Assembly (NCBI GenBank): GCA_037833965.1
Contig: AP031351.1
Coordinates: 18,240,501-18,304,500 of the forward strand
DNA length: 64,000 nucleotides
Direction of reading: 5' to 3'
From: Marchantia polymorpha subsp. ruderalis
Lineage: Eukaryota > Streptophyta > Marchantiopsida > Marchantiales > Marchantiaceae
The notes under the pieces are model-generated. The model was not told the DNA's origin. It searched no databases and saw only the letters and a program-made list of their open reading frames with translations. The position numbers and the translations under genes are program-made. Positions 15,341 through 52,500 of the stretch are shown in pieces; within the stretch, counting starts at the first letter, position 1, and each line of letters opens with the position of its first letter.

Positions 15341-15360
15341 TGATGCTTGGTAAAGTGTTA

Positions 15361-15470
15361 TTAAAAAGAGATCTTACGAAAGCTTTTGACAAACATAACT
15401 ATGAATACTTAATCAAGCTTAAAATCATTTATGTACACATCTTTTTAGTGACAAAGCGCGTAACTCTAGC
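15361..15470 (+). pseudogene. Possible non-LTR (LINE) reverse transcriptase fragment
   Basis: One short frame reads RDLTKAFDKHNYEYLIKL, which resembles the D-L-S-K-A-F-D block of non-LTR reverse transcriptases. It is about 36 codons long before a stop and no further RT motif was found around it. The match could be chance, given how AT-rich the region is. Confidence 0.3.
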
Positions 15471-15479
15471 TTGAACTAT

Positions 15480-18400
15480 GACTTTGAATGTGTATAGCTT
15501 GTGTTAATAAGTGTGTGAATGATTACAAATAATGTGTTTTTTTAAAAAAAATATTTTTTGAACAAACTAACATGAAAGTGTTGGAGTATTTTGAACTATT
15601 GTATTGACATTTGAGCTTATTTTAATTTAATGATAGGGTAAATATTTTAAGCTTTACGCAAGCAAGAAAATGAGATAGGATAAGAATTAGATCAATCACA
15701 TATTAAAGACAAGATAAGAGTATAATTTGTGAAAAAGTAAAATTTGTAGATCTATTCACAATTTATCTTGTTTATTGCAAAAGATCCAAGTATTGAAATT
15801 GCTATGTAACTGAGGTTTTGAGCATTGATAACAAGCTGTCATGCATTTTTTTCAAATATAACTCAAGGTATATTGTGAAAAGCAAAGACCATAAATGTGA
15901 GTTTTTTTGACATGTTTGAAATGTAGAATGAAAATTAAAATAAACCGTTAAAAAATAAGATTTATGCTCCTTAGTTTTTTAATTCTTGTATCATAAATTG
16001 CAAATGTTTAGTTGGGTTGGGTCTACAAGTTGGAATTGGAAAGATTTCAACGTTGAGAGTATTGAAAAACATCAAGTTCATCAAGCAGCAAGGATGCAAA
16101 AATTGCTTTAAAGCATTATAAGATATATATCTAATTATTGATTAATTAAAATAGTAAATTTATTACCTCTCATCGATAAAGCAAGTTTGAGATGTAATAT
16201 ATAATGAAAGATTAGGTTTAGTGAATATTGTGATGCAATTGAAGTCAAAAGATTGCAAAACTTTAAATGTGTGACTAAATAACTCAAATGTAACTTTGAG
16301 CATGACAAGCCAAAGCATAAAAACATCCTTGCATTGCATATAATGTAATATATGATTTTTTAAACACTTAAATTTTCAAACTAAAAAGAAAATAAATGTG
16401 GATAATATAATAAAATTAAAGTTTGCATAGCTTACAAATTATTATTATTTTTTACTTGATATAATTATGCTAATTGAAATTCAAAAATTAAAATTAAAAA
16501 ACCTGATTTTAACTAGGCGAATTGCAAATGGTGTTTTTTTAGAAAGATTTAATATATTATACTTGATACTTCATGTAAAGCAAAAAAGAAAAATGTTTAG
16601 ATTTAAAGTTTCAATCTTTGATAATTATTTTTTTGTCTTAAATCCTAAATCTGAGAGTTGTAACTTATATACTTTTGTAAAATTAGTGATGCATGAATTT
16701 TTTACACAAGTAAAAATAGACGTTTTAAATAAAAATAGCTCAAAATATTTTTTCAATTATTTAAAATATGTCATGAAGTGTAAAAAATATGAGTATGACA
16801 TTGTTATATACAATGCACATAATGAGCATTTGCTTTAGAAAAGACAAATCAAAGATAAAAATAAAATCTATAGAATTTTTAAGATTTTGATGTTTAAATC
16901 TTTTGCCTTCAACTACATTAAATAAAAATTGAAGTATTAAGCTATGAATGGATTTATATCACATTTGCAATCTTTGATAATGAAGTAAGGGGATAAAAGT
17001 GATAATTGCGTTATGTTAATTGACAATCTTGACCAATTGATTGTATAAGAAAAAATTGATATATATGCTTACACTATACTTCAAGCTAATCAGCATAAGG
17101 ATGAAAATTTTGATACAACAATTTAAAGTTGTTTTGAAAATTTTGTCATTGATCTATAGTGTAATCAAGTAAAGAAATTAGTTTGTTTTTTGTTATAACT
17201 CATTAACTGCATTTTATTTTTCACGATCATGTGTATTGTTTCATTGCAATAAGGATAAAAAAAAATACAAGTGTTTTTTTATACATGATTTTTATTCTAT
17301 TATGATGCCATAATTTTTAGTATCTTTATCAAATATAATAAAGATTTAAATATAATACAAGTTTGATCATGTACAAGAAATGAATTGGAAGAAATTATTT
17401 TTTTGATCCATATGTAGATACAAATTTACAATAGAAATCTTTAAAATGATATTATAGTTTGTTAAAAAGTAATTCTTTAAAAAAAACAAATTTTTATAAG
17501 TAAAATTGTCTTTCAAAGATCAAATATGATTATAGTTGTCTAAACAATGTGAATCAACAACTTGATTCCAACATGGATGAGTTGCAAACAATGATTAAGA
17601 TAACAAGTATGCAACACAATACAAATGACAATGATGTGTAGATTTTAGATCGTGCTTGTTATAATTACAGGAAAATTATTCAAAAACACTTTTATACTTT
17701 ATAAAAATAAAAAATATATAGTTTTTTTATAAATATCTATCATTTTTAAAAAATTTGAATTATTTGATCGGTTTTATTATTGTAATGTTTAAGTAAATCA
17801 AACTTACGTTCATTCAAGTCAGAATTATATATGATACAAAAAGATCTTTAAATACTTAGATTAGATCTAAAAGTATTGAAGTGAAGCTCTTAAATGAAAA
17901 TGCTTGAGATTGAAACTTGTAACAATCTTATGTTAAAAAATCCAAGTATAATATAAATATATACATATATGCTAAATTCAAAATATTATTTGATAAAGTC
18001 AACAACATCAAATCTTGAATTGTAATAACTCATATGTAACATTGTATATAAGATTAAATGTCTTATACATACTTGATAGTTTTTGGCAATAGAAATTTGT
18101 GACAAAGTATAGTAAAAGTTGAATTAGACTTGTGTGAACATAAGATTATGAATAAGTACAATTTTAAAACGTCTAATGTTTAGCATAAGACGTTTTTCAA
18201 TTGTTGTTTTAAAGCCTTGAATACTATATTTATCAAATGATGTTTGGAGTTCATCTTCAAAACTTTCACTTTCTAGAAAGCTAAATTATAGATAATTGAT
18301 TACTTATAAGTAAAAAGTTGTAGTACTTTATTCTATCACATAAAGATCTAAATTTAAAATAAATTGTTAATTAAATTTTTAAAAAATGGATAAAAGTTGG

Positions 18401-19490
18401 ACATAAAAAAATATTTAAATATACATAATAGAGTCAGTTATAATTGTAAAGATTTTGAAAGTAATTGCAAAATTTAGGTCATTTCATCACAATTATTTTC
18501 TTCAACTGAATATTGAATCTAAAACTCTCAACCAAATAATGTGTGAGAGATAACCTTTATGCTTAGTCAATGTAATTTTGTCATATGAATCTCCGTTGAA
18601 ATTATCAATACTGCAATGTATATGATAAAAGAATACTTTATAATGTAATTTATTTTCTTTACTTAGTTCAATGGAGACTTATACAAATGATTGATTAGTG
18701 TTTTTTATATCACGGCTTATACTTTCATACCTATATATGAAGTAGAATATTAAATCCAATAAGTGAATTTTTTCATTTTTTAACATAAATTAGTTTAATA
18801 ATAAAGCATAGATTGTCTATAAATAAAGTAGAATATTACATCTAATAAGTGTAATTTTTTCTCATTTTTAACATATACTAGTTTTATAAAGGATTATAGA
18901 CTATGCTATACCATATAATCTTAGATGAATGTTAGTTTAGATTTTTTCTATTGATGTATTTGGACCGCTGTTAGTAAAAATTATTAAACAAAATTCTCAA
19001 AAATTATAATAAAATCAATAAATATGTTTGAATAAAAAAATGTTATTATAGATTGTATATTATGACACAAAGAACAAGTACCATACATATTTTATAAATT
19101 TTTTTAAAATAAGAAATTTAAAAAATTTATCATTGATGATACCCAAATGATTACATCAAATGATAAATATCAGTCAAAATTTCTTACTAAGATATTATCA
19201 AATTGAACTAGTTGGACTTACATATATATGTAATATGAATTGAATTATATTCTTTTAAATGTCATGATATTGAAACTAAGTATGATGATGACAATCCAAA
19301 TTTTTTGGTAAACAAATACTTTGTCACTATAAAGAAGTTAAAATCTCTATCAACAAGCTTGAATGAAATAATGCTATAAAAGTTATGATGAATTTTTTTT
19401 GTTGATAATAAAACATAGGAAATAATAAGATTATATAAAATCATATTTTTGGATAAAAAATTAATAATAATTTGTAAAATTTTCTAAATT
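15480..19490. other. AT-rich decayed region, probably upstream part of a Copia element
   Basis: No intact gene. The 123-codon open frame at 16467-16838 is Lys/Asn/Phe-rich with no domain and is likely a chance AT-rich frame. Around 18945-18975 the plus strand reads IDVFGPL, faintly like the integrase D-x-C-G-P-L block, in the right order before the reverse transcriptase at 19.5 kb. A direct tandem repeat lies at 18741-18912. Confidence 0.4.
18741..18912. repeat. Two-copy tandem repeat, period 86 bp
   Basis: The motif AGTAGAATATTA-ATC-AATAAGTG followed by a T-rich run and TTTAACATA occurs at 18741 and again at 18827, with a few substitutions. It is non-coding and lies within the decayed Copia region. 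Confidence 0.7.
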
Positions 19491-19494
19491 ATAA

Positions 19495-20045
19495 TAAGAA
19501 ACAAATTTTCAAAGTTAGATTGAAAGTTGAAGGTTTACATAAGACAAAAAATGTAGACTTGTAAATGTAAATTGTAGAAAAACAGTCTTCATTTATAACC
19601 ATGTAGGCTACAAATGATTCATTTTTATAGTTATTGCGATATTTATTTTGATTATGAATGAGATGTATGTAGTTATGACATTTTTCACGGATTTAAAATA
19701 TAACAATATACACAAGAGAACTCGTTGATTTTAGTCATGAAAACTTAGTTTATAGTTTAGTAAATTTATTACATGAATTGAATCACACTCTTATACAATG
19801 CATAGCGAGGTTTCATGAATTTATAAAAGCACTAGGGTTTTCAAAAGTACTGTGTAATTCTTAATGTGTACATGCATATAGTTGAAAGAGATGAATAATA
19901 AGATTTTAATTTTAGTATAGAATTATCTATGTGAATGATTATGTCACTTTGGTAAAACAATCAATCCAATGCCAACAAATGCAATATCAACTAAAGTATA
20001 TCTTCAAAATAAAGTATGTGTAAAATTTCTAGAGTCTATTATGAA
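19495..20045 (+). pseudogene. Decayed Copia (Ty1) reverse transcriptase
   Basis: The characteristic blocks of plant Copia RT occur in order on the plus strand, in shifting frames with many stops. They are FKVRLKVEGLHKTKNVD near 19511 (family Y-K-A-R-L-V-A-K-G), YVVMTFFTDLKYNNIHK near 19665 (D-V-K-T-A-F-L-x-G-D-L), YSLVNLLHELNH followed by RFHEFIKALGFSK near 19750-19850 (Y-x-L-x-K-x-L-Y-G-L-K-Q and the following helix), and YVNDYVTLV near 19925 (Y-V-D-D-x-L). Most differences from the consensus are changes toward A or T. It cannot be functional. Confidence 0.75.
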
Positions 20046-28330: not shown

Positions 28331-31300
28331 AATTCTGAGTAAGGAATGATAGCTATTAATATGTGCAATTTATGAGATTTGCAAGTTTATATCGACCATC
28401 AAAGTATCATTATATTTCATACTGATTTATCTATTAAATATTACTTTACTTTTAATTTTAGATGGTATAAACACAATTTTTAAATCTAAAAGCTATTGAA
28501 AGGTAAATGAATTTCCTCCATAATTATCTACACACTCCTTATGTTTCAGTAGTTACAACATTGTTTTGAAACAACTTGAAAAGTAAAATTTAACAGCATA
28601 CTAAAATCATATTCGGCAAAAAATATTTGATCAGATATTTGACTATATGATGAAAATGTTTTAATATGTGAGGTGAATGTATAAATTGGAGGTATAGATT
28701 ACGTAGGTCATGACCCTATGGAAACTGAATATTTAGCGGCCAAAGAGTAACAAAGCGATCAATTTGATTCAATAGCAAAGTACAAATGTGAATGGTGGTT
28801 ACTGAAGTAAATTACACATTCATCGATGATTCATGTCACAACTGCTACAGTTTATAAGTTACACATACATCTCATCAAGAACAGTATGTATGATCCATTT
28901 TCAAAACCCATTGTTGGAATAACAATAGGTTTACGACGGGTCTGTTTGAGTAATAAATATCTCTCCCAAAAATAATGGATACCGGGTCATATTGATAAAA
29001 GTTGCATACCTAAACATATATATCTGAAAATAAATAAATAAATAAAATTACGATATTCGCAAGAAAACCTGGAGTTGAAGAGGTATTTGCGAATTGATAT
29101 GAATGCAATAATGCCGGGTCAGGTTCTTTGCATATTATCGCAAACCGTACATTTAAGAAATCAAACGGGTGACAGGGTAGCCCCATTGGGTCTTCTGCAG
29201 TGGTATACCTGATTTAGAGCACTCAATCCACACTAACAAGTTCGACCGCGAAGTTGTGAGAAATGTAGTGATTAGATCAACTATCCTTTTCCAGACGACA
29301 CTGCGGGACGCCTTCGGATCTGGGGATCCTTGTTATGAATAGATCTCTAACCGTCTGCGTCTAGCGAACATCCTCTTCCGCATATGTTTGTGATTGTTGG
29401 TCATGAATGTGTCGCCGCGTGGGATTTCGTCCGATTGTTTGTTAAATAATTTGCACCATGAATCCGCCATGAAATTTGTGGTGCAGAGATTTTAACAACG
29501 CTCGAACTAAATCCTTTTCGTGAACCATAAGTTTGTCAACCATAGGGAGCGTTTGTATCTACCGACCTGGTTCTGAGAGATTGACTTCACACTCAGGTCA
29601 GTTGTTGTTGTTTGGGATGTTGACATTTGTCTCATCAAACATGATGTGCTGAATCCCGAGCAAATCATATTTGTGGTAGTGAAAGTGGAGACCCGTTCAT
29701 TCAATTTTACTATGTGTTGAACAGTTGTGACAGGTAATCAGCCGAGCAGACAAGCAATATAAAAATCTTTGGCACATTGAAGATTTTTTTAGAAATAATG
29801 GCATGTACGAGGGGGAAGGACTAAGTCCATTCTAGTTGACAATTTAGAACTAGGATGAACGACACTGATTGGGTTAACGTTGCGGCTTACAAGGGACATG
29901 GAGGAGACGAATTCGCGAAGGGGACAGATTAAAAATTTGAACACTGAAGTGGGAGCTAAATTGCCCGGGATCGAAATAGCGGGATTTTGAATCTACATGT
30001 GTGTGTTCACACACCTGTCGTCTGGGAATTAATTTCTCGTTCTTTTTGAGAAGAAAAGTCGTAAGACTCTGGAAAGTAATCCGACGACTGAGTATTGATT
30101 GAACAAAGCAGGAAATCTATGAGGAGAAAGAAGAAGATGATATGCATTTACCTTCAAGATTACGGTTGATTGAAAAGAGATTAGATTAAAGCCAGAATAC
30201 AAGACTAGAGAGAAACAGAAGTTTACCACGAAGATAATTGTTGAGGTGTTCACACAGTTCACATAACTGAATCAATGATCAGTTGTGTTGGACGAGGAAG
30301 TGTATATAAGGAAGTCGTTCACATCTGACAAGCAATGGAGTGTGCATGATTAAAACTGGTTGTTTCTTGAGGTTGCCCTGCATGCCGTATTCAAGATGAT
30401 GGTGTGCGTGGGAGTTGGTAGAAGGAAGAAACGTGCCTCTCGCCGTTAGTTTTCGTTGAGCTGCGAGACAGTCACGGAAGAATAGGGTGAATGTGGCTGG
30501 GTGCAGGCTCCTATTGCTCTGTAATCCAGTCTGTTTTCTGACAGCTCAAAGGGTAGTGGGATCAATTTGCGAATAACACGAGAGACAGCTTTCAGGCGGA
30601 AAGCGCTCTATGGTGAAGCATTCTTTTACGGATTTGCTTACATCTGCAGCATGCGTTTGTAATTTAATTGCTGCCGTTTTCTGGACTGCGGATTAGTGTT
30701 GGATAATTCTATAAGTCTGTACAGCGTTTGAGTTTCGCTTAATGCTCACACACATTTTCCCTATTAAAAAGTTTTTGTCGTTTGCATTGCGTCTTCATCT
30801 TCATCCTGAGCCAATGCAGAATTCCAAAGTCTGGTTAGTCGAAGTTTAGTAAGAAAGCGACTTTCACCATTTCGATACTTGTTTCCCTTTTTTCTCGTTT
30901 TACTTCACCACTCGCCTTTGTAGAAAGACAGAACTCCTATCTCTCCTTCCAGGGGCTGTTACTTGATCACTATTCTTGCACTCTTCAGCTTTCTTTTCAT
31001 CACTACGTGTCACACCGCATTGACACTCGGAATTGTTTCGCATGCTTCCCTGAAGAAGCAGAAGACTCACGGCCAATTCCACTATTTTCTGATTTTCTTT
31101 TTCTTTTCATGAATGTACGATGGAACTCTTCCAATCTATCATCATTCAGGGAATCAAGGGTTTAAGAATCACGAATGCTCACCTTTCGTAAGGTTTCCTC
31201 TAGCTTTTGTGATGTTCGGTTGTTTCCTCGTGTTCATCACTTGGAGGTCTCCGTACTCAGTTGGAGAAGGATGTGAGGGATGACGTCAAGAAGTAGCCCT

Positions 31301-31393
31301 TGCGCTTGAGCTGGATGTCATTCCAGTTTAGCTGGTAGGGTGTTAAAGGCGCCAGAGTTGTTTACAAGTCCAAGATTCAAAAGCAGGTGAATT
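28331..31393. other. Upstream region of the kinesin gene
   Basis: 28,330-29,100 is AT-rich and featureless. From about 29,100 the composition rises. No protein gene was recognised; frames such as 29507-29704 minus and 30029-30262 minus have no domain. The last kilobase should contain the kinesin promoter and 5' UTR. Confidence 0.4.
30302..30309 (+). promoter_or_regulatory. Possible TATA box for the kinesin gene
   Basis: GTATATAAGG lies about 1.09 kb upstream of the start codon in otherwise mixed-composition sequence. The distance would need a long or spliced 5' UTR, so this is only a candidate. Confidence 0.2.
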
Positions 31394-34300
31394 ATGGCGA
31401 GCATGGAGCAGGATAAGAAGGAAAAAGTTTATGTGATAATTCGTGTCCGGCCATTAAGCAGAGAGGAGGCCACGGCGAGGAGCCCTTGGAAGCTTTCTTC
31501 CAAATGCATCGCTTCAAACAAGACCTGTCGACCATCCGTGCCGAGCCATTCCTACACATTTGGTGAGAATTCACTCTTGATATCGACTTTTTGCTCTATT
31601 TCTAACTCTGGAAGGTTTGAAACAGTGGGAGCCAATTGAGATGCGTTTGAGAGCAATTGTAATTGAACCCCAAACCGTTTGAAAGAACTCAGATCACCTT
31701 GAACTCCCTTTTTGAAATCTGAAATTACCTGAATTTACTTTTAGCTGAAGAAATAACGTTGCAATCAAAGCTTCTTTGCGCTGTCTATTCAAACCCCTTG
31801 TTAAGAACTAGATGTAACCAAAGCTCCATTCGCTTACAGTGGGGCTTTAATGAATTCATATCTTGTGATTTTGCTAAATTAACCTTACACTGCGCTCAGT
31901 TTCACCTTAAACGTGTATCCAAACTTAAATAGCATATGAGTAGCTGGCCCTGATATGCATCACGAGCCGATTTACAGACAGGATATATGGCACGAAACCG
32001 CCCACATTGGACATTTACAACGCTCATATCAAGGACATCATCATGACAACCATGTCTGGAATAAATGGTGAGTATTTCTTCTCTTGAGAACACTGTCTGA
32101 CGTTTACGTTGTTCATGTCATTCTGCTTGAAAAAGGTTGAGTGGGCAAGATCTCCAGGATTTGCTCCAGTCATTATAAGAGATGGTTTGAGAGGTGTTAA
32201 CTATGATGTCAAATATCCAAAGGGATATGATTGTAAAAACCTATATTGAGTCAGGTATATTTTGCTTTGTCTGTGTTCCTGGGGACCTAGATCACAATCT
32301 ATCCTTCAACTTTCGCTAAGGATGTCAGGGTTATCGTGGTAGTTTGCACTGTTCAATGCAGTCCATGATTTGCCATCTCAACAGAAATTCAACTTTGGTG
32401 AAGTACATGGTGTCTAATCTTACTTATTATGTACATCACTCTTCATCCCAATGCTAGGAACTGTCATAGCGTACGGACAGTCTCGCAGTGGGAAGACATT
32501 CACTTTGCGAGGATCGTCTGAAGAAGTGGGCATTCTCATGTTAGCCGTGCAGGACATATTTCAAATTGTCCAGGAGGTGGGTAACAATTGCAAAAAGTTG
32601 TGGCCAAAACCATTATGCACCGGTTATGAACAACTTTAGATTCACGTCAAACCTTGTTCTGGGCCTTGCAGTAGATAGATTAAATTTTCCAGACAAGCTG
32701 TCTTTCAAGCTTATGCCATCAATATGCTGTGAAGTGGCAAGCAGGAATATATGTCTCCCAGTCTCAATAGTCGATGGCATAGGTCTTGTAACCCATATCG
32801 AACTCTCATATTACTTCTGACGCCACGTTGAACAACACAGGCCTCCAGCAGAGAATTTCTTATTCGCATGTCCTACTTGGAGGTTGCAAACAACGAACTG
32901 AATGATTTACTGGCATCGAAGAGCCACAAGCTGGATGTCCGTGAAGATTCTGAGGCACGCGCATTTTCAACCTGTTGTCAGCCTTGGCCATAAGCATTAC
33001 TTACAGTTTAGCAATGGGATGGGAAATTGTCCATTTTTGAGATTGGAGGCCACAAGGCTGAGATGAAAGGTCCATGTCTGAGTATTTCAAAATGAAGACA
33101 AATATGTAATTAACCAGAGCAGTTCATGATACAGAATCTGTCTCTGTACAGCTTGGAGTTGTTATTACAGGGTCAAGAGAGGAAATTGTGAACAAGCCGG
33201 AACAAGTTATTTCGCTTCTTGATTTTGCAGAAGGTGAGTGAATATCTCTTTTTGGATGACCTTCATCTTGAGGGTTTGAAGAGTCCAGTGTCGTTTTGAC
33301 AGTCATTTGACCTTGAACAAAAAGTTATATTTTTGGACAAAATAGATTCTAGTCGACGTAGCTATTTCACTCACTTAATACTCCTGGTTTGAAACTCAAG
33401 CTTGTTTGGCAGCACGTCGTTCAGCTGAGTCAACTAACACGAGTTATGGGCTTTCACATTCCGTCTTTCGATTGGTAAGATCTGCACTCCCCATGATCGG
33501 CTCTGAAGACTTCAATTGACACTTTCAGAAACGAAGGTTCTCTTTGCGTGTGAATCTAGTCCCGAGCAGTTCAAAAAGCTTAAATTCTTCATCATCATCA
33601 TTTGCACCTAGGGGTCCACGATGACGATGGATGCTTTGTTCTAATTCTATGGCTTCGATACTTCTAGGGCTTTTATCTCTTGATATCTATATGAACATGC
33701 CGAGAGCAGATTTGTACGAAACTAGTTAACAGATTTGTGTCGTTTACTCTCTGTATGTGCTTTTACGAAATATTTTCCTCTCCGATCATTTGTTGTTATG
33801 TGTTCTCTGGACATTTCGAAATATTCCAGATTCTTTATGCTGCTCGTGAATCATGTATTCCTATGCATTCAAACACCTGCATTTATCCCAATATTCAATA
33901 GGTTTAAAGTTCGCGGTAACATGGTTGACGCGAGTTAATCTGCTTTCGGATTTCTTGACCTCTAATATTCTACATAAGAGCTTCAGAATTACTTTTTATT
34001 GTTTAATTATTGAATTTTAATCTTGTGTGCACACGCAGAATACACACCTGATCATCTGAATTTTGATACCGATTACTATCTGCGGGAACTATATAACCCT
34101 GCATGATGTTTACGTGAAGGCATAGTTTCAGCTGAGATATGGCGAATTGTCGCAGGTCATCGAGAGCAGCAGCCTGGAGCAGCAGAAGAATTCATTCGAT
34201 GCACATGAAAGAGATGGATATCAAATTTCTGTTCTGGTAAGAAGACTCACTCGGAGCCTCACTTCAAATCCATTATCAGAATATTTTATTTCTTTGACAG

Positions 34301-37300
34301 GCTAGGTCTCCGGCCCTCTCTCCAGGCCCTCTTTCTGCTTCTGTGTAGGAACTTTCTTTGTTTGGACATACTTCATTGTTCTCTCCAGGGCTCTCGATGT
34401 TTTAGGTCGTGTCTTAAGTTAAAGGTGTGCTATACCATATCTACAACTAGTCTGGTCCACAGTCCTAGAAAATCTCCGTGGTCTCTGGGGTTTTGAGTGA
34501 TCTTGAACCCCGAGCAGATGTTGATGGCCCCTGGTTCCTTTTCTTGCATCCGATTCGACACATACCGTACTTCCCTCTATCAGCGCGTATGCGCTCGTTT
34601 GAGTCTTTGAACCATGTTATATTTTCTGTATCTTGTACGCGCTTGTCATCCCATGGATTCTGGCTGCCTGCTTTCCATTTCCACAACTCACATGCAGGCT
34701 TCTGTCCTGGATACTCTTTGAATGTTTGTCTATAGAATCCGTCGCTTTCTTCACCAGGATGCTATGCCATGTCTCGTGCCCGTTTTTTATTACAGATCAG
34801 ACCCGAAAGTTGGCAGTTCGAATGAATCAGCTCCTATGGTTCTCGTTATGATTCCACCTCCCGGATCTCTGCTCCTGGGTCTCCCTTCCGTGTTAAGCCC
34901 TTGCGGTGGATCACGTGCTATTTCAGCTGTTTTCTTGATTTCTTGATTAGAAGAAGTTAACCTCTGGGGATTGTCCACTGTATAGGCAACATATCTGTTT
35001 TGTACTGGTTTTCCCCTTTGATAAATGCTTTCACGTTTAAGCTGACCGTCAAATTGCTGGCTATGTTTTCTCTCCGCATATTTGCATCAAAAAATGGTCC
35101 CTTGTGATTATTTGATCCCTAATAAAGTCTGCATGCAAGTATCCGAACTTTATCGTAGAGTTCTATTACCACAATGCTACTAACAGGGATAAGTTTCACG
35201 TAACAGAACCTTGTCGAAGTAGCCGCAGAGAAATCCAATCTTGGGAAGAATGAAAATTCTTCTCAAGTGGGAGTGCAACCTGACAAATGCTTGGCAGCTT
35301 TACATTCTGTCGTCAGCAAGTTGAGCGAGGGTGCTTCGATCGAGGGGTAAGTGAAATATTGGTGGTTTCTGCCGAGCTATTACCTGATTGTGCGCTCTAT
35401 ATCTTAGGCATGTGGAAGGATGATTTTCTTCCCCCGTGTGATATCATTGACGCAGTGAATGTATTCCTTCAAGAGCCAGAATCAGAAGATCTTTATACTA
35501 AAATTGAAACACGAAGTCTTTCCGTATATTGTGGACGTCAATGTTGCTTGTTGTTGGTACTCAAATCACAGTGAAATCAAGAATTAAGCAAATGCATCTT
35601 GTTGCTGACCTCGCTTAATATTAACCTAAGAACATAAGAAGCTCATGGTTTTGATGTGCAGAAATAGTGTGCCTTACGCTGAAAGTAAGCTAACACAAAT
35701 TTTGCGTCCATCACTCGGAGGGAGCGCAAGGACTTGTGTTATTTGCAATATCTCCCCAGCCATGGTCAGCAAGCATACCTTTATCTTAGGAGTCTTTTTT
35801 CTTGACATTTGCTTGTAAATGGTTGTATCGTACTTCTCTTGTGGTTAGTGCCTTACTCATATTCTATGGTAACTGGCAATTCAGCTTTATTCCAACTGGA
35901 TGTTGTTGAATTCTTTGTATTCCTTTATAAGAAACCTGCAATGTTCTAGAATCGTCTCTCTTTCAAGAGCTCAGTACTGCGAACGAATATGGTCCACTCA
36001 GAAACCATAATCCAGACCTGGGACTACAGACTGAGTACATCAGTAAAATTTCTTTAAGGGGCGTACTAAGAGTAGCTGATTTATTCTGGTTATGGTGCAA
36101 CTGGTTTCGTTGTTAATTTCAACAGGGTTTTTTGTCCACTCACCTACACATGTGTCATGGAACCGCGGTAATCGTTGTGTGGCAGGTCCATATGGATGCG
36201 ACAATTGCATCACTAGAGTTTGCTTCAAAAACAACCAAACTGCTGAACTGTTTCAAAGTGAATCAGGTATCCAGGCTTCTGCTTAACCATTGACATGGCG
36301 CGTCGGTTTGGAGGCATCTTTCTTGTTTTATCTTTTCAGCCAATTTGTAAAAGTATTGAAGGTAGGGACGATGACGACAATAACAAGAATGTCGCAATTA
36401 ATTGCTTTGTCCAAGGAGAATGTTATTTGACTGAACTGCTTAAGAGTGGTGGTAGAACATCTCAATAATATTAATTGTCAACGTGAATGAAGTGGTAGAC
36501 TCAACGAGACTGGTCAATTGACATCTGACCTCCAGTGTTATTGATGCTTCAGGTGTGCACGGACAAGGCACTGTTGAAGCGCCAAAGACGGGAAATTATG
36601 GACCTTCGTAGCAAGCTTAAAGTGAGGCGCTTTCTTCTTGCTCTCTGCTGTGGTAGTACTTATTTCAGGAACACTTTGACATATTCTAGCCCTGATTTGC
36701 GAACAGTCAGTTCAGTTATCTTTCACTGAGTCTGGTCGTCGAAGAACGTGGTACTACCTCCATCTAGAACGTTGCTTTTTCCATCCTCACACCATTTTCA
36801 ATAAAAATTACCAGCAATCAAAGTTTTTTAGGGGCAATTTCCTGTGATTGATTGCAGATTTTCAGCACATGATAAGTAAGTTGGGTAAGATGCACGTAAT
36901 CATTCGATGTCAAAACAACCACAGAAAATATACCCCTACGAGCATTTTTTTGACACTGTCCATTTCCATGATACAGGAACTTCGCTTTCCGGACCTGGAA
37001 GAGGAGATCCTTAATCGTCGAAATGCCCTACTAATGGTATTCATCTGGCCTATAAAAGAAGTTCAAGAGAATTGGGTCATTCTTTGGCGGCAAAGTATTC
37101 ACCTTCGCTTTCGTTAAGTTATTCAAACAAAATCTAGGATGTTTAGGGGAAATTACGTTTTCGCATTTTCATTGTAAGTTTGTGAGTTTCATTTTAGGTT
37201 CATTGGTTCCTAATTGTTATTGTATATTTGCTTGTGGGCTAGATTGAATTAGAAAGAGAGCAGATGTCTTTAGAGCTCTTTGAAAGGACTCCTTCAAGCT

Positions 37301-40300
37301 CCCAGGGAGAAAACAAGGAGCATGATCAAGAACCAAGGGGAGAAAACATACCTTTCGAGGGCGAATCTGGATTTGAGAAATGTTTTGATATGCCAATGGT
37401 AACGAATATCACTCAAGCTAATCACGGACCGATCTTCCATTATGGTCAAAGTCCATGAAGTAATTGAATTTATTATGTATCGAGACCGAGATGCTCCAGT
37501 CCCCGCCTGCTCATTTCTGCTTTGAGTTCTCTACTTTTCATTGGTTCTTAATATGAGGAGTTCTGCGTTACTACTGATGAAACATCCGAAGAAAAATATC
37601 AATTAGAAATATTGTTGAATTTCTTCATTTCGTGCTATAAAATGTCTTCAAGGTTCGGAGTGTGACTTCAAAATAGTGAAGTTTCTGTTGACGCCTGTGT
37701 TTCAAGATGAAGTGTATTGGACTTTCCTCCTGTTCTTGTTATCCAGTCTATGTTACCTGCGGAATCAGGGACGGCACAGCAGCGTTTTTAAGAAATTTCC
37801 CTGTCAAAGGATGGGCTTGCCGTTGTATTTTGAGGTAGTAACATCTGTGCATCTGACATCTCATAATTATCTCCTTGTCTACATGTGACAGGGTGAGTTC
37901 AATGATTCATTACAAAAGAAGAACTTGGCAGATTATCTTGGATACTTCAACTCTGCGCAAGGACTCCATGAGTTGGACCTTGATTTGCAAATGAATTGCA
38001 CTGGACTTTGTCTGGGTCCATCTGTTGGAACGAAGAGGAAAAGGAGATCCTATACGACAGCTGTTGCAGATAAGGTGTTGTGGTAGAGCTCTTATAGTGA
38101 AGTCTACTTTTCCTTACACGCAACTAAGCCCAAAGCTAAGGGTTTTTTTGTTGTCAAACTTTCTCTTGGAAAAAGCTTCCTATTAAAGTATTTGAGCACT
38201 GTGCGTCCTTGAGATTGCTCACTGACATATTGACAGCAGCTGGAGCAGGTGGACTTGCTGTTTCAATCGAAAGTGGCTAGAGAAGTCAGCTGGATGAAGT
38301 CAGAAGGTCTAGCAGAACGTCAGAAACTTACAGAATTGCAAGCATTCATTGCTCAAGAAAACAATGAGCAACAGGAGCTTCTCACACAAGGAGATGAGAA
38401 CTGCAGAACCTTGCAACGTCGAGTTGCAGAACTGGAGGCAGATAAAGTATTCAATCAAGACTATTTCATCTTCGTACAGAATCCAGTGGGTTCGTGATGT
38501 GCGCAGAAAACTACATTGTAGCTCTCTTGTTTATGTTTTGGTTGCTCTTTGAAAACATACTAGTAGAATTTGTCTGAAAATAAGTTCCGTCCTATAAGGT
38601 GAAGATCATAGTGAAGCCTTCTCTGTAGAAAGGGCACGATGTACATGTTTCACGAAGGAATATGTGTTAATTATACCTTTATGGTAAGTTTTGTGCTGCC
38701 TTTGTACTCTCAGATAGTACGATAGCTTTGTTAAATTTGGTCACAACACGTGGGGAAGAGGCATTTTAGAAGAGCTTTGTTCCTTTCACGATCTGTAAGC
38801 TAGCTCATCTGCTTCAACTTGAACAGGCATCGTTGGAGAAGAGGTTGAACGAGCAAGAAGTCTCTCACACGAAGGCAATGGAGGCTCTAAAGTATGAGCT
38901 TGCCCTGGAAAAGTCTAGACATAAAATGGTAACAGTGGCGGAGAAGGGAGTTAAGGACGCAGATAAAATTCATACTTCAAATGGTTTGGAAGGTCAACAT
39001 GAGAGTTTCCACGAGAGACGACGTGGTTTGGAAGAAAATGCAGTGAAACAGAATACAGAAACGCAGTCTTGCACGTCACAAGAGGTTGAAGACCAGCAAA
39101 GGCTTTCAAAAGAAAAAGAAGGTCAAACCACCCCAACGAAAAGGAAGGCCTCGAAGGCTAATAAGGTATGCCAACAACGTCCTGAGAATCTGAACTACCA
39201 CATCGATCATTTGCCTCCAATTCATTCTGTACGTAGCAACCCCTCAACTTCCAGTTTACATATGAGTACTAGCACATTAGGCAGGCCTTGCTGAAGTTGA
39301 GGTAAAATTTGAACTCATCAGTAGATGTATGATGATATACCTTCAGCGGTGTGGTTTTTGTGAACTTATTACACATTTTACATTCGCTGAAAGTTGCCAA
39401 CCATCCCTTGTCCTATATTCGAGCTATGAAAACTTGCATGTTCCCCGATAACAGCGCCTTTGGAGTTCATGATATGTGGTTACAGGTATTTCAGAAGTTT
39501 CAGAGCTTCCAAGGTCGGTCAGAGCTGTCTAATGTGCGCAAGGAGCTTGCAGTTGCAAACGAGACGATTACGGTTCTAGAAGATGAGCGAAATAGTTTAT
39601 GGAAAGATTTGAACCAGATGAAATCCAAGTTCAAAGAAATCTTGGGCAAACTGGAAGCAGACAATTTTGAGGTACGTATCGAGCACGGGATGTGTCGATT
39701 TGACACGTCCTTCCTAGCTCATGAAGTTCCCCCCCTGCTGGTTCCAGACGTCGTTTTTGAAAAGATTGGCCTTCATAATTTCGAAGTTCTAATTGCTGTG
39801 CCTACGCTCTCATGCGTCACTGCTGAAGCAGCTCAAAGGAATTCATTCACTTGTTGTGAAGATTTACAGATTTCGGTAGAACTGGCCTTGAGTTCATAAA
39901 AACTATAACTACAGGGATTTGTCAAAGTCTATTCAAGTTGATGTGAACAAGAATCGTCCAGTAGATATAAAGTTTTTAACATTCATTGAATACAACTCAA
40001 CGAATTGTCAAACCTGGATTGCACAGACATGCATCCTGCTGGTTTTAGGATTCGCATTTTCAGTGAGTTTGGAGTGAGGCCTGCGACCTTCAACTGTTGA
40101 TCGAACTCCAAGTTGAAATTCTCATAGCAATCATTTTCAGATACAGTCTGAATATGCTCCCCTTGAACGCGAATGTTTCACAAATCTTTGCAGGAAATAC
40201 CAACCAAGATTCAACGTATGAGAAAAGTTGAATGATTCTACTAATTCTGACTAGATTCAGTTACTATCCTTAGGACATCCTCTGAAAAGTTAGCTGAACC

Positions 40301-43300
40301 ACGGAACCACCAGCTGAAAGTTCCTCTAGCCACCGACCGCTCGCACCCTATATTCTTCACAGAGCTGTAGAGAACCCTGCCAGTCTGATAGGCATAGACA
40401 ACAAAGTCCACTCCGGTGTATTCTGAGCATCATGAGACTAGGATTATCGGCAAGATAGATAGAAATCAAAATTCGTACCTTACGGAGACCTGCTAAGATA
40501 GAAACGGAGACTTTAACACAGATGAAATTTCCCTGCACTAGGAGGACAGCAGAGGTGACCATAAATTTCACCAACAGATGGCTGCTGCTGTGGATACGCT
40601 GAAGGCTGAAGTGGAGTCCACAGCATCCATAACTGATGGTCTACTCGCACTTCTATCGGAGAGCTTTCAAATTTTAGGCGCTGATTTGAAGAGTTTCCAG
40701 GTGTATGTCCTGGGCCTGACTGTTGCTGTCATATCTCATAATATTGACACTTACTCTTAACTCAAGAATGCTGCGGAAGTACGTGTTGGCGAGAGTTTCA
40801 GTCAAGAATCCACGTTCCAATTTAATTTACAACTTCCGTTTTTACAGGAAGGTGTGGCCGAAATCAAGGTTTTAAATGGGGCGCAAGCTGACGTGTCGGA
40901 GTCTTTAGAGTATGCCAAACTGCAACTATCGGCTTTGAGGCACGGGAAGCTCGCATCTGATAAAGAAGTCTTTTCTATGAAGTCCGAGCTTGCCAAGTTG
41001 GAGTGTGTCGTAGAGAGGCAAAGTGGCGTGCTGAAAGTGCTCTCTGATAATGAAAACTTGTTGAATGAGCTTGCTTCCGTGAGGGCAGCTATGAAAGAGG
41101 CTGCGGGAGCTTCTGAACTTCAGATGTCCTCTATTCAACAAGAGTGCGACAGTAGGTTGAAAGAGCTTGAATCTGATTATAAGCATTGGAGACAGGAATA
41201 CTTGCAACTTGAGGAGGAACAAACAAAACTTCAAGACAAATTCTCAACAGCAGAAGCGGAAGTGATGCGGTTGACCCAAGCTCTAGATGAGAAGTCAAAG
41301 CAAGACAAGAGACCCGCAAAGAACATCAAGGCGAGATTAGCAGAAGCAGAGGCTGAACTTGTGCTCCTGAACGGTCAATTGAAAGAGAAATTACTCTTCG
41401 AGGAAGATCAACGGAAGGTTGAAGAAGAACTTGCTGACAGCAAAGCTGAGGTTGAAAAGTTAAAGAAAGAAGTAGAAGAGAGAACTAGGTTGGAAAAGGA
41501 ACACAACCAAGCTTTGAGTAAACTTGCAAAGTTGGAGTTTGAGGTCGCGAGGTTGACTGCTGCAAATGAGGAAAATAAAGTGTTGGATCTCGAGCAAAAG
41601 AATCTCCAGCTCAAGCTTGAGTCGGAAATTGCCAACCTGAATAAGCTACTGGAGGAGAAGTCAGGAGTTGAAGAGCAGCAAAAGAAGATCCAAGCTGACC
41701 TTGCTACCTTGCAAGAGAAAATTGAAAATCTTACTCGAGAAGTTGAGCAGAAGGACATATTGGAGAAAAAGCAGTGCGAGCTTGTCTCTAGACTGGAAGT
41801 TTCTGAGAACGAGGTGAGAAGGCTGACTGAGTTGTTGGATTTTAGTAAGGAGCACTCAGAAGTCTATCTCGGAGAAATGTTGGAGAGATTTCGAATATCC
41901 GAGGCTGAAGTTGTAACGTTCAATGAGAGCCTTCAACGAGAGATTGAAGAGCGACGAAGACTACAGGAGGTGCACTGTAAGGACGTAAGTAACATCGAAA
42001 AGTTAGAGGCTGAGACCAGACGATTGTCTGAAAGCCTGCAACAGGTACTGGTGGAGAGAGAAGGTTTAGAGGAGGAACGCTTGAAACACGTCGACGTTAT
42101 TTCTCGTATGCAGACCGAGATTGAAGGAATGTCACAGAGCGTTACTGCCATAACGGAAGCGAAGGAGTTCCTGGACAAGGAGAAGAAGCAAGCGCTCGCA
42201 GCTCTAGGTACCACAGAGGCTGAGTTGAAAAGCTTGGCTGAAGGCCTCCATCGTGAATCGGGTTTACGGGAGAAACTAGAGAAGGAGCTTACAGGAAGTC
42301 ATGATGAAAATCTCAGCTTACAAGCAGACGTAGAGAAGGTGACTGAAACACTTCGGATAGCAATGGAGGAGAAAGACATGCTAGAAAAGGACCACCAAAT
42401 GAACCTAGAAACAATCGCGATCTCCGAGACTAAAGTTCACAGGCTCTCTGCTAGCCTTCAACAAGTCTTGGAGGAGAAGATCTCACTTGAGGAGGAGCTC
42501 AAAAAAGGCTTAGTTGAAGTTTCCAGTTCAGAGGAAAGGGTCAAAGAACTGACTCAGAGACTTGAAAGGGAAAAGGAGAAATCTAAAAAGCTAGAGGAAG
42601 AGCTGGAAAAGGGGTTCGATGACCACACTAACTCAGAGTCCCGAGTTACCAGGCTGGTCAGATCACTAGACGAGGAAATGGAAGAGAAGGAACAACTTGA
42701 GATTAGGCTCGAGGCATGTACATCAAAGCTTGTCTCCGCTGAAGGTGACGTTGCGACATTGACCCAAAGTCTTACTAAAGTTTTACAAGAGAAAGTGGCG
42801 CTGGAGAAACAACACACCGAGACGCTTGAAACTTGCACTCGCTTGAAATTGGAGGTCGCAAGGTTGTCTGAAAGCATGAAAAGGGAGGCTGAAAGTCGCG
42901 AGAAGTTTGAGAGGGCTGTCAGTGGGGAGTTTGGAGAATGCGCAAGGCTTACTCCAAGCAAAACCCGTAAAGTAAAAGAAAGAAAATGCTCCCAAATGGA
43001 CCGCGATGCAGCCGCTGAAAGAACTGCTAGTTTACAAATTGAGCTTGACGAGCTGAGAGAAAGCTTAGTAGAGGAAATAGAAACGAGGAAGCAACTGGAG
43101 AGGGACCATGCTCATGTCCTTGAGCAGCTTGGTGTGTCGAAGGCAGAAGCTGCAAGCTTGACTGAAAGCCTAACAAAAGGAGCCGAGGAGAGTCGAAGTT
43201 TGATGACTGACCATAGTCATATTCTTTCAAGACTTGCTACCTCGAATTCCGAGATCGCCAGCTTGAGTGATATGCTAGAGGATAAACCGCGCTTGGAGGA

Positions 43301-45829
43301 AGAGTTACAGAACTTCCAGCTCATACTTGCAAGTTCAGAAGCTGAAATAGTGCGGCTGAATGAGGAACTGATTGTCAAGGGTAGACTTGAAAGCGAGCAC
43401 AGACGTACTCAGCGTGAACTCGCTGCGGCGGAGGAAGAAATTAAGAAGTTGCAGGATGAGAAGTCGAGATTGGAGAACTTAGAAAGGGATGTTCTGGTCC
43501 GATCAACGACTCCTGATACTGAATGGTTGAGGTCAAGTGACGTGACAGAGAGGACCAGACTTGCGGAAGAGTTACAGGTCGTACGCTCTGAACTAGCTGA
43601 GACTAAGGCAGAGCTGGCCATTGTGAGAACTGCTCTGAGTAAGAAGCTGGGCCTGGAAGAGGCACAGATCAAAACACAGATGGAATTGGTTGATAAGCAA
43701 GGAGAATGTGAAAAGCTCATGAAAGAAGTGCGTATAAACCGAAAAATGGTGAAAGAGCAGAAGAGACTTCTCCGCAAACTTACTAGCACCCAGTCTGAGG
43801 TTTCCAAATTGAAAACGGCCATTGTAGGAAAGTCTGAAGAGCAGACGAAGGATACACATGAATGCGATAGGGCGGCTGCTGAAGCGACGGGTCCAGTTGG
43901 CACACCTGGTGTTGGAACAAAATTGGACTCTGAGCTTTCGAGGATGCGGGAGAAACTTGCGAGTACAGAAATCGAAGTTAGAAGGTTGACGAACTTATTA
44001 CAAGAGAAGGAAAAACTGGAGGGTAATAGTATTAATGTTCAGCTTGAGCTTGTTAGAGCCGAGAACGAAATTCAAAGGCTGGCAGCTGCCCTAGAGGAAA
44101 CATCCAGTCTGAATGAGCTGTGGAAGGTTTTTCAGCTCACACGTTCAGACGGAGCCGTTTCAGCACCAAGAAACTTAAGCCTAGACGACTTTCTTACAGA
44201 GATGCTGGAAAGGGAAAAGAAGTTCAAAGAGCAGGAGATGGAGTTACAAACGAAGGTAGCTGCGTTCGAGGAAAAGAAGTTCAACGTCCTGGATATGAGT
44301 AAAAACTGGGGGAGAGATTACAAGTGCGCAGATTGTGAAGTATTTCAGACACTTCTGGAGAAGATACGGAAAGAAAGAGATGGGTTCAAGGAAATGTGTA
44401 CAGCTGCTGAGATAAAATTAAAGACTTCGCAAGAGGAACTGGAGAATCAGAAAAAAGCTTTTGAAGTAGCAGAAAGAAACTGGAAGACCAAGGCTCAAAA
44501 GAATGAAAAAGATTTGGCAGACTTACGAACAAAAGTTACGAAAATGGAGGAAGGCACCGGGTGGATTGTAAGGGAGAAGGTAAACTTAATGCTGTTTAAT
44601 GTCTTGCTCTGCTTGCCAGTAGCGTAGTTTATGCTCGAGGAAATATTGCAAGACTTATTGTCGAGAACATTCAAAACCAACGTGCTAAGCTCAATTTCAA
44701 ACCTTACGCTATACCAGAAGGCGCTTGAGGAACGACTGAGTTGCAGCGAATCACAAATTGCAACTTTACGAGAAGCTGCCCGAGCAACAAACAAAGAGAT
44801 GGAGGTGACTAGAAGTTCACCTGAACGGCCTATGGCAGTGTCTCAGTCAATTTTAATGAAATTAAAAAGTAGGAACTGCGTAATATTCGTACTCTTGTAT
44901 GTGTATCAATATTTGAGACACTGCAGTAAAAACTTTAAACAAAGTAGGTCGAACGTGCACTACATTTTGTATTGGGTTTAAATTTTAATATCTAATATCC
45001 TAGTTCTCACCATGACTTAATAAGTTTGTGTTACTTGACGCATTATACAGGCTTCACTAACTCGCTTGATAAAAGCAGAAAGCTTGTTCAATTCCTTCAC
45101 CATCCTAGTTTTTTTTTATTTTTCTTGTTACGGATGACTCAAGGTCTGAATGTATATGTCAATCTTATCACAGATGACCCATCACAAACTCCATCTCCTT
45201 ACGACCCAGCACCAGTCTGATGTTGCTGCATTTTGTAATGAGCTTTCCATGAAAACTGTGAGTACATTGACGTTCATTTGTGTCCCACTACCAAGTTCTA
45301 GAAGCACTGACGTACTTTAATGGAAGTTTCTGAACAACACTTAATACGTCCAAAACTGCAATTTAATCAAAAAGGTTCATACTTGCAGCAACTTGCTTCT
45401 TTATAAGGAATTTGTGCTGGTTAGTTTCATGGTGTGGTTGCAACACTGGAAGTAGAGGGATCTTTGAGAAAAGGGCAGGAGTAATGCTCATGCAAACGAC
45501 TAAAAAGATTACAAGTCAGGTTCTTGGATAGAGTATTGTGAAACAAAGTTTCTGCATATTAAGAACCATGATAGTCGCAGTCCATTCGGACCACTGACAT
45601 TAAGTCACAAATGCAGACACGGATTGCAGAACTGGAAAAGGAAGTGAAGTCTTTCCTAAGTCATCCTCCTCCACCGGCCCCAGCCATGCCAAATGACTTT
45701 TCCAGTTATCTCAACTCTCCATTTAGACCACCGCAATGGCCTTATCCTCCACTGCAGCCACCACAGCAGCAGGCTCACCATCACGATCCCCACTGGGGTG
45801 CTGGATCCAATAAAGGACCACTGAGGTGA
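31394..45829 (+). CDS. KIN-7O/CENP-E-like kinesin with degenerate ATPase switches and long coiled coil
   Basis: 22 inferred exons, all phase-consistent: 31394-31562, 31978-32067, 32458-32576, 32841-32954, 33152-33233, 33413-33474, 34156-34236, 35207-35346, 35662-35764, 36186-36266, 36553-36621, 36977-37036, 37243-37398, 37892-38074, 38237-38446, 38827-39165, 39486-39671, 40578-40700, 40848-44579, 44718-44804, 45210-45257, 45617-45829. Together they encode about 2,148 residues. The motor spans about 1-370: [12 protein letters not shown]-loop GQSRSGKT (93-100), [35 protein letters not shown], then the neck block [18 protein letters not shown] that fits plant KIN-7O. Switch I reads NTSYGLSH instead of NxxSSRSH, and switch II reads EVAAEK instead of DLAGSE. 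Residues 790-2033 are one heptad-rich coiled-coil exon. The tail is Pro/His-rich and ends GPLR. The role is presumably kinetochore or microtubule binding without normal ATP turnover (inference). Intron 4 uses a GC donor. Confidence 0.85.
32955..32956 (+). other. Inferred GC splice donor, kinesin intron 4
   Basis: Exon 4 must end after GAG at 32954 for the product to run from REDSE into [13 protein letters not shown] with the length of other KIN-7 motors. The next two bases are GC, not GT (GAG then GCACGC). Reading on instead meets a stop 13 codons later. The acceptor is the CTGTACAG ending at 33151. Confidence 0.55.
40848..44579 (+). CDS. 1,244-codon single coiled-coil exon of the kinesin
   Basis: Acceptor TTTTTACAG precedes 40848 and donor GAGAAG then GTAAAC follows 44579. 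The exon is phase 0 at both ends. The product is almost continuously Leu/Glu/Lys heptads with recurring E-x-x-R-L-x-E-S-L-x-x-x-x-E-E motifs, spaced as if built from repeated segments of roughly 35-50 residues. This is the rod of the kinesin. Confidence 0.85.
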
Positions 45830-49542: not shown

Positions 49543-52500
49543 CTAGTACATTTCGTCTCTGCGATCCCTTCTATCGTCTCGCCTATCATCCCTCCTGTTG
49601 TAGTACTCCCTGGACAGACTTCGTACGGGCGACCTGCTCCTCTCCCTCGCATCCCTTCCCCATCTAGCTCTCGGAGGAGGACTGAATCGCCTCTCACTCC
49701 TTGGGTCTCCTCTCTCAAGGCTCCTCCTCTCCCGATACCGATCCTCCCGTTCTCTATCTCGTGGACCAGGACTGCCATACAAAGCCCTCGATTCGAACGA
49801 AGGCCTTTCAAATCTTTCTCTGTCTCTGTAGTCTTCACGCTCCCGAAAATCCTCTCTATCTCGAGGGTGTCGCCCTGGCCTGAAGTCCAATCTGTCTGCA
49901 AGACGGGTAGGAAGACCATGATCCCCAAAGCGGTCACTGATGCGCCCGGGTAATCCGTGGTCAAAATCTCGAGGTCCACCACCTCCACCTCTACCACCCC
50001 AGGGTCCAGGAGGACCACCAAATCCACCCATGCCACGCTCGATACCATGCCCCAAAGGAGGACCGCCCATGAAAGGAGCATGCGGAGGTGGTCCCCGGAA
50101 CCCACCCCCGCCAGGACCTCCCACTCCGAGGCCTATGACCATATCTCTTCGAGGCTTGTTGCAGTTGTTGCAATGGGTCCTTCGCGCAAAATTGAGATTC
50201 CCACATCTGCACATGACGAGATCCGCTTAAGACTTCCTCCTTGTCATCAATACGTTACATCGTCCAGACGTAGTTAACAAGCCTGAAATCCGGATCTTTG
50301 ATGCAGCACAGCGAGCATACGGACGCCTATCATTTGACGGGTACCATACTGTGGATCAGAACGAAACGAGAATGGACAGGGGGTAGAGCTAAAGGAACAA
50401 ACGTTGGTTCAGAACAAATCCAGTCTCCTTCTCGTGGAGTCACATTTGGGTTATTTCGCCCAAAGCTCTCTCCTCCGGCTGGGAAGTCGTCGACTACGCC
50501 GCCATACACACCTCCGAATCCTCTTCCAAACGGTGGCAAACCCTGCCCAATTCCCAACTGGGGCGGCACATGTGGGGGACCAAATCGGTCGGAGTGTCTA
50601 CCGCGTCCCCTTCCTCCGCGATAACCTCGCCCTCTTGGTGGGATATCTCTGTCTCTGTCATAATCGCCTCCGTATGAACTAGAGCGCCTGTCTCGAAAGG
50701 GACTAGCGCCAGGAATAGGGGCCTGTCCGAGTGAGACCTGTATTTTACTACCCTTGTACTCATAACCTGAAAAATACAATCAACCAACTCAATACAATAT
50801 GTGCTTGCCTAGTTGTAGACAGCTTGTTTCGGCGAGGCGAGGCGACAAACTACCCTAAAACTCAAAACCTGAAAGATACAATCAACCAACTCAATACAAT
50901 ATGTGCTTGTCTAATTGTAGACAGCTTGTTTCGGCGAGGCGAGGCGACAAAGCAGTCCTTGGTGCTTGGTCTTCTTACAGTAAAAAAATAATTAATTTGA
51001 CCCAAAAATCACTACAACAAATACTTTAAGCGATTTAGCAGTTGTAACAGGTAGTAATTTCACAATACCATTGAACCAGCTAACAATTCCCGTTGCTGAG
51101 CGCGGGTCGTCCAAAACCACTTCCGCTTCTTGTGCACCCGTTTCCTTGTCTCTGAACAGCTTCACCATTGGCAGCCCCGACTTGCGCTCCACCTAAATAA
51201 CACATGACGTTCGTCAGAGGTAACACCATATGAAACGAATGGTTCCTGCTTGTCTCCCCAAATAATACTATAGATGAAATCTACCAGATATCCCAGTTAC
51301 TTTTCCACTAAAATTATTTTCAAACTTCGCATACGAAAAAAAGTACCAACCTTGTGCTCCAGTACAAATGGACTTCAACATGCTAACAAGGTACAACAAA
51401 CGGCAACTCCATGGGTAAAGAGGGAAAAGTAAGATGAATCCATTCCTTATGCGGAATTCGGGAACTTGCATCGGTTCCAAAGCCCCGCAATTCAGAAAAC
51501 GACTCGGAACGTAGACTGAAAGATAGACAAACGAAAAAATGGAAGGAACGCAGCAATCTCAGATAATAACAATGGTGGTCGGGGGTGTAAGCATTCAACC
51601 TTGATGGCACCGGCTTCGGCAAGTAAGGCTGCTAAGCCCTCCTCAGTCACCGTTTCGGGTAAATTAGTAATGAAAATTGTGTCTGCTCCTCCGCTGCCAT
51701 TTCCTGCGCGAAAAGAAAACACAAACTATTCAGAAAAGAAAGGAGGCATGAATCTTTGTTACACTACTGACTCGGCAGTTGACTTGACCAGTGACGGGGA
51801 GGAAAGAGAAATCGTGGGCGCCTTAATGCTCAAGAATTACTGTTCTGGACAAGCAGGTCTTTCAAAGCAAGCCAACAAACAAACATAAAGCTGAAAGCAA
51901 GCTGTCGGGGCATTACAAGAGGTACTTGAAATAGTCTGTGGCAGCAGCGAGTGCCGAAAGTGACTCTGCTGCTAGAAACTCAAACGTCTGCTCGGCCTCA
52001 TTGTGGCGGCACCAGCCTATATCAAGCTCCGAAGGGCCAGTGCTAACAGACAACCATATGTAGTAGACAACATTTGCCATCTCTTTTAAACAACCCACTA
52101 CTTCGTTGCCCGAAGCTCACACAATGCCTCAACCAAGATGGTTCCCATTTCCCTACGGTTCCCTAGAATAATGCGATATTCCTTGCGATGATTTGCAAGC
52201 TCCGCTAGTTGATGGACGAAAGGTCGTCATTTCTCGAACAGACAGCTCTGAACCAGAGGCTCTTCACACCATTAAAATGCGCACACAACCTTTCGTCCAT
52301 CCGACCATTGCCCCACGACATACACGCTAATCCATTGACTGACCGGTAGATGTCCTCTTCAAGACCTAAAAATACAACCATTTACACAGCCTCGGGTAGG
52401 CGACAAACTGTTACTGTTATCTTGAGCTCAATGGCCCAGCGACGGCGAAGCACAACTTACACAGTCCTCCGATCAATGTCAGCAAAGCGTGCTATAATTT

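Follow-up and report, generated by a model that had tools for sequence, protein, structure and literature searches.

A CENP-E-class kinesin of Marchantia polymorpha with a probably non-catalytic motor domain

Kinesins without catalysis are already known from kinesin-14 (KAC, Vik1/Cik1) and from KIF26/Smy1. Arabidopsis KAC1 and KAC2 are described as not binding microtubules and as having no detectable ATPase activity (PMC3472504). Vik1 and Cik1, the partners of Kar3, combine a non-catalytic motor-like domain with a coiled coil and are described as lacking the elements for ATP binding and hydrolysis (PMC4338441). KIF26A/B (kinesin-11) and Smy1 are animal and yeast kinesins without ATPase-driven motility, and Kif26b lacks DLAGSE, and also the IFAYGQT stretch at the P-loop, while still being microtubule-associated (PMC3387196). 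On the plant side, Arabidopsis KAK1 and moss kinesin7-III are comparison members of kinesin-7 (PMC11794483); moss classes III and IV are the kinesin-7 proteins closest to CENP-E, and the coiled coil of class III is much longer (PMC3472504). Here we describe a gene of the liverwort Marchantia polymorpha subsp. ruderalis, on the plus strand of a 64,000-nucleotide stretch of contig AP031351.1 (positions 18,240,501 to 18,304,500; hereafter the window), whose CENP-E-like motor domain keeps the P-loop and has lost both ATPase switches.

The gene resembles each of these systems in part. Like Vik1 and Cik1, it would join a non-catalytic motor-like domain to a coiled coil, but it keeps the P-loop; like Kif26b it has no DLAGSE, but it belongs to another kinesin family. 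It shares a long coiled-coil tail with moss class III and, unlike CENP-E or plant kinesin-7 classes III and IV, is without catalytic switches. KAC, in contrast, is an actin-linked kinesin-14. Neither a non-catalytic CENP-E-class kinesin nor this gene appeared in titles or abstracts among the matches listed from the open-licence literature. A kinesin without catalysis is thus a known type, and it is the lineage and the combination of features that appear new. We consider it probable that the gene encodes a pseudo-motor that has been retained, in which a dead, non-catalytic head sits on a coiled-coil protein of the CENP-E class. A head of this kind beside two intact paralogues, in a gene-editable model plant, would make the motor domain testable as a purely structural or regulatory part.

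Motor exons and the loss of catalytic motifs

The first-pass annotation of the window proposed exons and motifs for this motor, raised the possibility of an intact paralogue in the same genome, and claimed that the P-loop was kept while both ATPase switches were lost. There are two intact paralogues, L015 (contig 7, 11.78 Mb) and L029 (contig 7, 5.02 Mb), and both carry GQTSSGKT, SSRSH, DLAGSE and INKSL. The proposed coordinates and motifs agree with our own reading: rebuilt base by base, the motor of the window gene occupies 11 exons over 31394-36621 and reads as a single frame of 370 codons with no stops. Exon 1 (31394..31562) contains the start methionine and the adenine-side RVRP motif, kept as IRVRPL; exon 2 (31978..32067) reads DRIYG...MSGIN, and exon 3 (32458..32576) carries the P-loop GQSRSGKT, with GxxxxGKT kept. 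Switch I lies in exon 6 (33413..33474), where NTSYGLSH stands against NMNLxSSRSH. Exon 8 (35207..35346) spans switch II, loop 11 and alpha-4, and has EVAAEK, aligned as EVAA-EK, against DLAGSE, and PDKCL against INKSL, again as the annotation had claimed. Exon 9 (35662..35764), with loop 12 and alpha-5, differs from the paralogues by an Arg-to-Ala and an Arg-to-Gln change. The motor ends and the neck begins in exon 10 (36186..36266), and exon 11 (36553..36621) encodes a neck coil that is well kept relative to the paralogues. Exon 5 (33152..33233) was placed by the rebuilt frame and spliced alignment, and exon 7 (34156..34236) by the rebuilt frame and comparison with the paralogues.

All motor introns are GT-AG except intron 4, where the donor of exon 4 (32841..32954) reads GAG/GC. 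An in-frame GT-AG alternative exists, with a donor after 32940 and an acceptor before 33135 (intron 32941-33134). Hence, of the earlier claim that frame, splice sites and rod are all intact, the frame and the rod are indeed open, and the splice sites include one that is non-canonical.

A purpose-written spliced-alignment program was run on 30001-38000 with the intact motors of L015 and L029 as separate queries; with the L015 query it also reproduced the hand-built models of L015 and L029. Both queries returned identical exons for the window gene apart from intron 4, which was GT-AG (32941-33134) with L015 and GC-AG with L029, in frame in either case. The reverse strand of the window scored 112, against 721. 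No SSRS, SR[SA]H, D[LV]AG, AGSE or NKSL occurs in the six frames of 31001-37000, where the bare tripeptide SSR is found ten times and is never followed by SH. Alternative splicing that would restore the switch motifs was rejected, given the same switch exons with both queries and the five motif patterns that were not found in six frames.

The losses were then set against the kinesins of the whole genome (nine contigs, 241,466,482 bases), in which PF00225 matched 97 stretches. Grouped by position, these make up 29 loci including the window gene. Gene models for the other 28 were built from one query (L015); five of them contain one stop (L021, L024, L028, L031 and L034), probably through model error in some. 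SSRSH is present in 25 of the 28 models and D[LV]AG[SN]E in 23, with DMAGSE in L021 and DLAGTE in L033. In the window gene the P-loop follows GxxxxGK[ST], with G83, G88, K89 and T90 kept and Ser in place of T85 (residues numbered as in L015). Switch I SSRSH is replaced by YGLSH (S195Y, S196G, R197L), with the final Ser-His kept, and the DxxGxE of switch II is gone (D237E, L238V, G240A, S241E, E242K).

We defined 39 near-invariant columns as those at least 95% identical across 23 core kinesins of this genome. The core set omits L010, L020, L021, L033 and L034, whose models have no D[LV]AG[SN]E, so the near-invariant set is cleaner than the family as a whole. The window gene keeps 24 of the 39 residues, while each core kinesin keeps about 90% or more in a leave-one-out comparison (lowest 0.90, median 0.97). 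The omitted loci keep 24 (L010), 28 (L034), 31 (L021), 32 (L033) and 35 (L020), and the L020 model is probably wrong at switch II. The 15 residues lost from the window gene are T85S, Y132A, G180A, S195Y, S196G, R197L, D237E, L238V, G240A, S241E, E242K, E256V, I260P, N261D and R288A. Switch I, switch II, alpha-4 and loop 12 contribute 18 of the 39 columns and 12 of the 15 losses; the remaining 21 columns account for three (Fisher P 0.001, for a split made after seeing the data). Residues on which L015 and L029 agree give a less sharp picture, with 4/12 kept in switch I (P 0.11) and 4/10 in switch II (P 0.27), for 139/255 overall. These segments, like the column split, were chosen for testing after the sequence had been read.

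Microtubule binding by kinesins depends centrally on loop 11 and alpha-4, their main microtubule-facing element, and on the arginine of loop 12. By the same measure loop 11 plus alpha-4 is the worst kept of ten segments in the window gene, with 6/23 paralogue-agreed residues (P 0.004; a count as low as this is seen in 12 of 233 windows of that length), and the loop 12 arginine has become Ala (R288A). The neck and the start of the coil keep 17/23 agreed residues (P 0.04 before allowing for ten segments), a value that none of the 233 equal-length windows exceeds. Two short segments are kept as well as the neck or better, namely IRVRP (5/5, P 0.05) and the P-loop (6/8, P 0.21). The first-pass annotation had suggested a pseudo-motor that holds microtubules or a partner. 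The first half of that suggestion is weakened by the state of loop 11/alpha-4 and of the loop 12 arginine, and for that reason a microtubule-holding pseudo-motor, though possible, is not favoured by the sequence; the state of the neck leaves the second half possible, and pairing through the neck appears at least as likely as holding microtubules.

Relatives within the genome and place among kinesin-7

The motor of the window gene matches Pfam PF00225 over profile positions 1-325 of 327 (E 1.4e-70, 238.3 bits, against a curated cut-off of 29.3), which places it within the kinesin fold. Among solved structures its best match is CENP-E (1t5c, E 4.1e-52). In a tree of the 29 motors, for which, as for the other tree analyses, stops in the kinesin models were set to X, it joins L029 (98/93) in a clade with L015 (95/96), within a five-row clade (100/99) that we read as kinesin-7; for two further members of that clade, L024 and L035, we assume the kinesin-7 label from their motifs. 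Together, the CENP-E match and the tree bear out the assignment to the KIN-7/CENP-E class made from the sequence at first sight. Terminal branches measure 1.02 for the window gene, 0.23 for L029 and 0.073 for L015. A nine-row tree does not fix the position of the window gene inside the kinesin-7 clade. In topology tests, neither its grouping with L015 nor the grouping of L015 with L029 is rejected (AU P 0.07 for each).

The ten motor introns have identical positions and phases in the window gene, L015 and L029, the GC donor of intron 4 being the difference. A retrocopy origin was set aside on account of these common introns. L015 and L029 are 70% identical in the motor (255/363), against 46.9% (169/360) and 45.7% (165/361) between the window gene and these two paralogues. 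At 46% identity, the gene is not a recent duplicate of either. Gaps counted, its motor differs at 116 of the 255 columns on which the paralogues agree. Exon 6 measures 62 nt, against 68 nt in both paralogues, and exon 8 measures 140 nt, against 146 nt; each 6-nt shortening amounts to two whole codons, and they fall exactly in the two switch exons. The window gene is probably a third, fast-evolving CENP-E-like plant kinesin-7 of the kind of moss classes III and IV, and would have arisen by duplication with its introns.

One other locus shows a similar pattern. L010 (contig 4, 4.17 Mb) has a kept P-loop (GQSGTGKT), both switches changed and the motor in a single open frame; like the window gene, it keeps 24 of the 39 near-invariant residues. 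The two share 10 of the 15 positions lost in the window gene (hypergeometric P 0.006), although L010 still has Asp in switch II and Arg in loop 12, both of which the window gene has lost. In the 29-motor tree L010 clusters with L009 and L014, a group that we read as kinesin-14, on a long branch that leaves its place unsure. Because of this cluster, and of a P-loop kept beside two changed switches, L010 is probably KAC, a name that rests on its place in the tree and its motifs. The window gene clusters with L015 and L029, apart from L009, L010 and L014, which speaks against its being a kinesin-14 and so against KAC (kinesin-14 V). The loss pattern common to the two genes suggests a shared route, in which the fold and the P-loop are kept while the switches and the relay helix are dropped.

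L033 (contig 6, 26.09 Mb) and L034 (contig 6, 22.66 Mb) form a close pair that shares a long branch (1.84); their switch I motifs read SNRGH and SDRGH. In L034 the P-loop is broken as well (GQECSAKT), DLAAT replaces DLAGT and the model contains a stop, as if one copy were decaying.

Retention, decay and possible roles

Beyond the motor, the modelled gene runs in frame to 44804, for a total of 20 exons and 2,073 codons without a stop. No disabled frame was thus found, and one donor departs from consensus. Under neutrality, 0.02 changes per site would be expected to leave 5.9 stops in 2,073 codons (chance of none 0.003), and 0.05 changes per site 14.8 stops (4e-7). The 116 differences in 255 motor columns are far above 0.02 neutral changes per site, so most of the change would have come during a time when the frame was being maintained; neutral decay fails to account for so many motor changes beside an open frame. 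In a codon model of the three genes over 359 columns, the window branch had an omega of 0.13, against 0.017 for both other branches (lnL -3508.3; -3513.6 with the window branch forced to 1, and -3514.0 with one ratio), values that are rough and give direction only, since synonymous change is saturated and branch lengths lie at or near the fitting bound. Selection on the window branch would accordingly be relaxed, not neutral. The open frame, the codon model and the stop expectation agree with the first-pass view that this is no simple pseudogene.

Several points weigh against a retained protein. The post-motor exons are predictions joined by hand from open frames and splice consensus. Because their splice sites were picked to stay in frame, the open frame looks better than it otherwise might, a bias that largely spares only the motor exons and the 1,244-codon exon. 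The omegas carry the roughness just described, and they make the window branch less constrained than its relatives. The GC donor of intron 4 could mean early decay, though the in-frame GT alternative is present. If the loss is very recent (fewer than about 0.02 neutral changes per site), an absence of stops would often be expected, and the whole account is drawn from the DNA of a single genome.

One rival reading is a young pseudogene, a duplicate that was relaxed, lost its motor and ceased to function so recently that no stops or frameshifts have built up. The long terminal branch, the higher omega and the GC donor speak for it. We nevertheless hold it to be rather unlikely: a stop-free run of 2,073 codons is itself improbable at 0.02 neutral changes per site, the residues missing from exons 6 and 8 are whole codons, and the losses cluster in the switches and alpha-4. 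Those same losses make it very improbable that the gene encodes a working but unusual motor, whether one that hydrolyses ATP slowly with diverged switches or one whose catalytic residues are hidden by alternative exons or annotation errors. The kept P-loop (apart from T85S), the switch I Ser-His, IRVRP and the strong fold score speak for such a motor, but Ser-Ser-Arg of switch I and Asp, Gly and Glu of switch II are replaced, two intact paralogues lead to the same switch exons, and the motif patterns did not turn up in the six frames of 31001-37000.

A further proposal is that the dead head acts in trans, by pairing through its neck coil with L015 or L029 and modifying that motor, as Vik1 and Cik1 do with yeast Kar3 (PMC4338441). 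By analogy with that precedent, and with a neck whose conservation is exceeded by no equal-length window, such pairing can be imagined. It seems quite unlikely as a specific role, since the neck P value is only 0.04 before ten segments are allowed for, IRVRP and the P-loop are kept as well or better, and the rods differ, the long rod exon having no match at the paralogue loci. Taken further, the gene could be a liverwort CENP-E-class motor's built-in dead partner, paired by the neck to an intact kinesin-7 paralogue, in which a head that holds nucleotide and does not cycle tunes or tethers the motor at the acentrosomal spindle. It would amount to a Kar3-Vik1 arrangement within kinesin-7, evolved independently and through losses much like those of KAC, and we offer it as speculation with a slight chance of being right.

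A retained pseudo-motor remains the reading we prefer. On this reading the kinesin fold, the P-loop, the adenine-side motif and a large part of the neck coil survive in the motor domain, whereas the elements that link ATP to microtubule binding, namely the gamma-phosphate-sensing switches and the relay helix, are gone. The product would most likely be a long coiled-coil dimer whose head may still hold nucleotide and neither hydrolyses it nor steps, with a role as scaffold, tether or dimer partner. The sequence itself demonstrates the losses, the intact relatives and, within the gene model, an open frame; the absence of ATPase activity, dimerisation and retention by selection we infer from it.

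Downstream exons and other features of the window

The exons after the motor continue on the plus strand. Exon 12 (36977..37036), a coil, and exon 13 (37243..37398) were compared by eye with EILNLRNELL of the paralogues and ELEKERLFLEL of L029, respectively. Exon 14 (37892..38074), exon 15 (38237..38446, a coil), exon 16 (38827..39165) and exon 18 (40545..40700) are predicted, as is exon 20 (44718..44804). Exon 17 (39486..39671), a further coil, weakly matches (E 0.022, 40% over 57 aa) a same-strand stretch that lies 6.7 kb downstream of the L015 motor, and the only other match outside the gene has E 0.36; the rods of the window gene and L015 may therefore be related.

The 1,244-codon rod of the first-pass annotation is present as one exon of 3,732 nt (40848..44579), a predicted coiled coil with 7- and 35-residue periodicity. 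Its first 332 residues matched nothing beyond the gene itself at E up to 0.001, with 121 of 843 first-look candidates scored, and the exon has no Pfam match at E up to 0.01. The first 144 residues gave two weak matches, one some 3 kb downstream of the L028 kinesin motor (E 0.45) and one with E 0.47. Over 40848-44804 a repeat period of 35 residues (peaks at 35, 70 and 105) overlies the heptad, as if the rod had grown by internal duplication. A probable last exon with a proline-rich end (45593..45829) is tentative, being an open frame outside the joined model, and a short further exon probably lies between 44804 and 45593.

Elsewhere in the window, AT-rich islands occupy 12001-20000 and 56001-60000, with GC of 20-23% compared with about 31-53% in the remainder. 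At 50747-50951 a 102-base unit occurs twice in tandem, the copies being 93% alike. On the minus strand, 49543-50214 holds an open frame that starts MCRCGNLNFARRTHCNNCNKPR, which resembles a RanBP2-type zinc finger, and continues into Gly- and Arg-rich sequence as in RNA-binding proteins.

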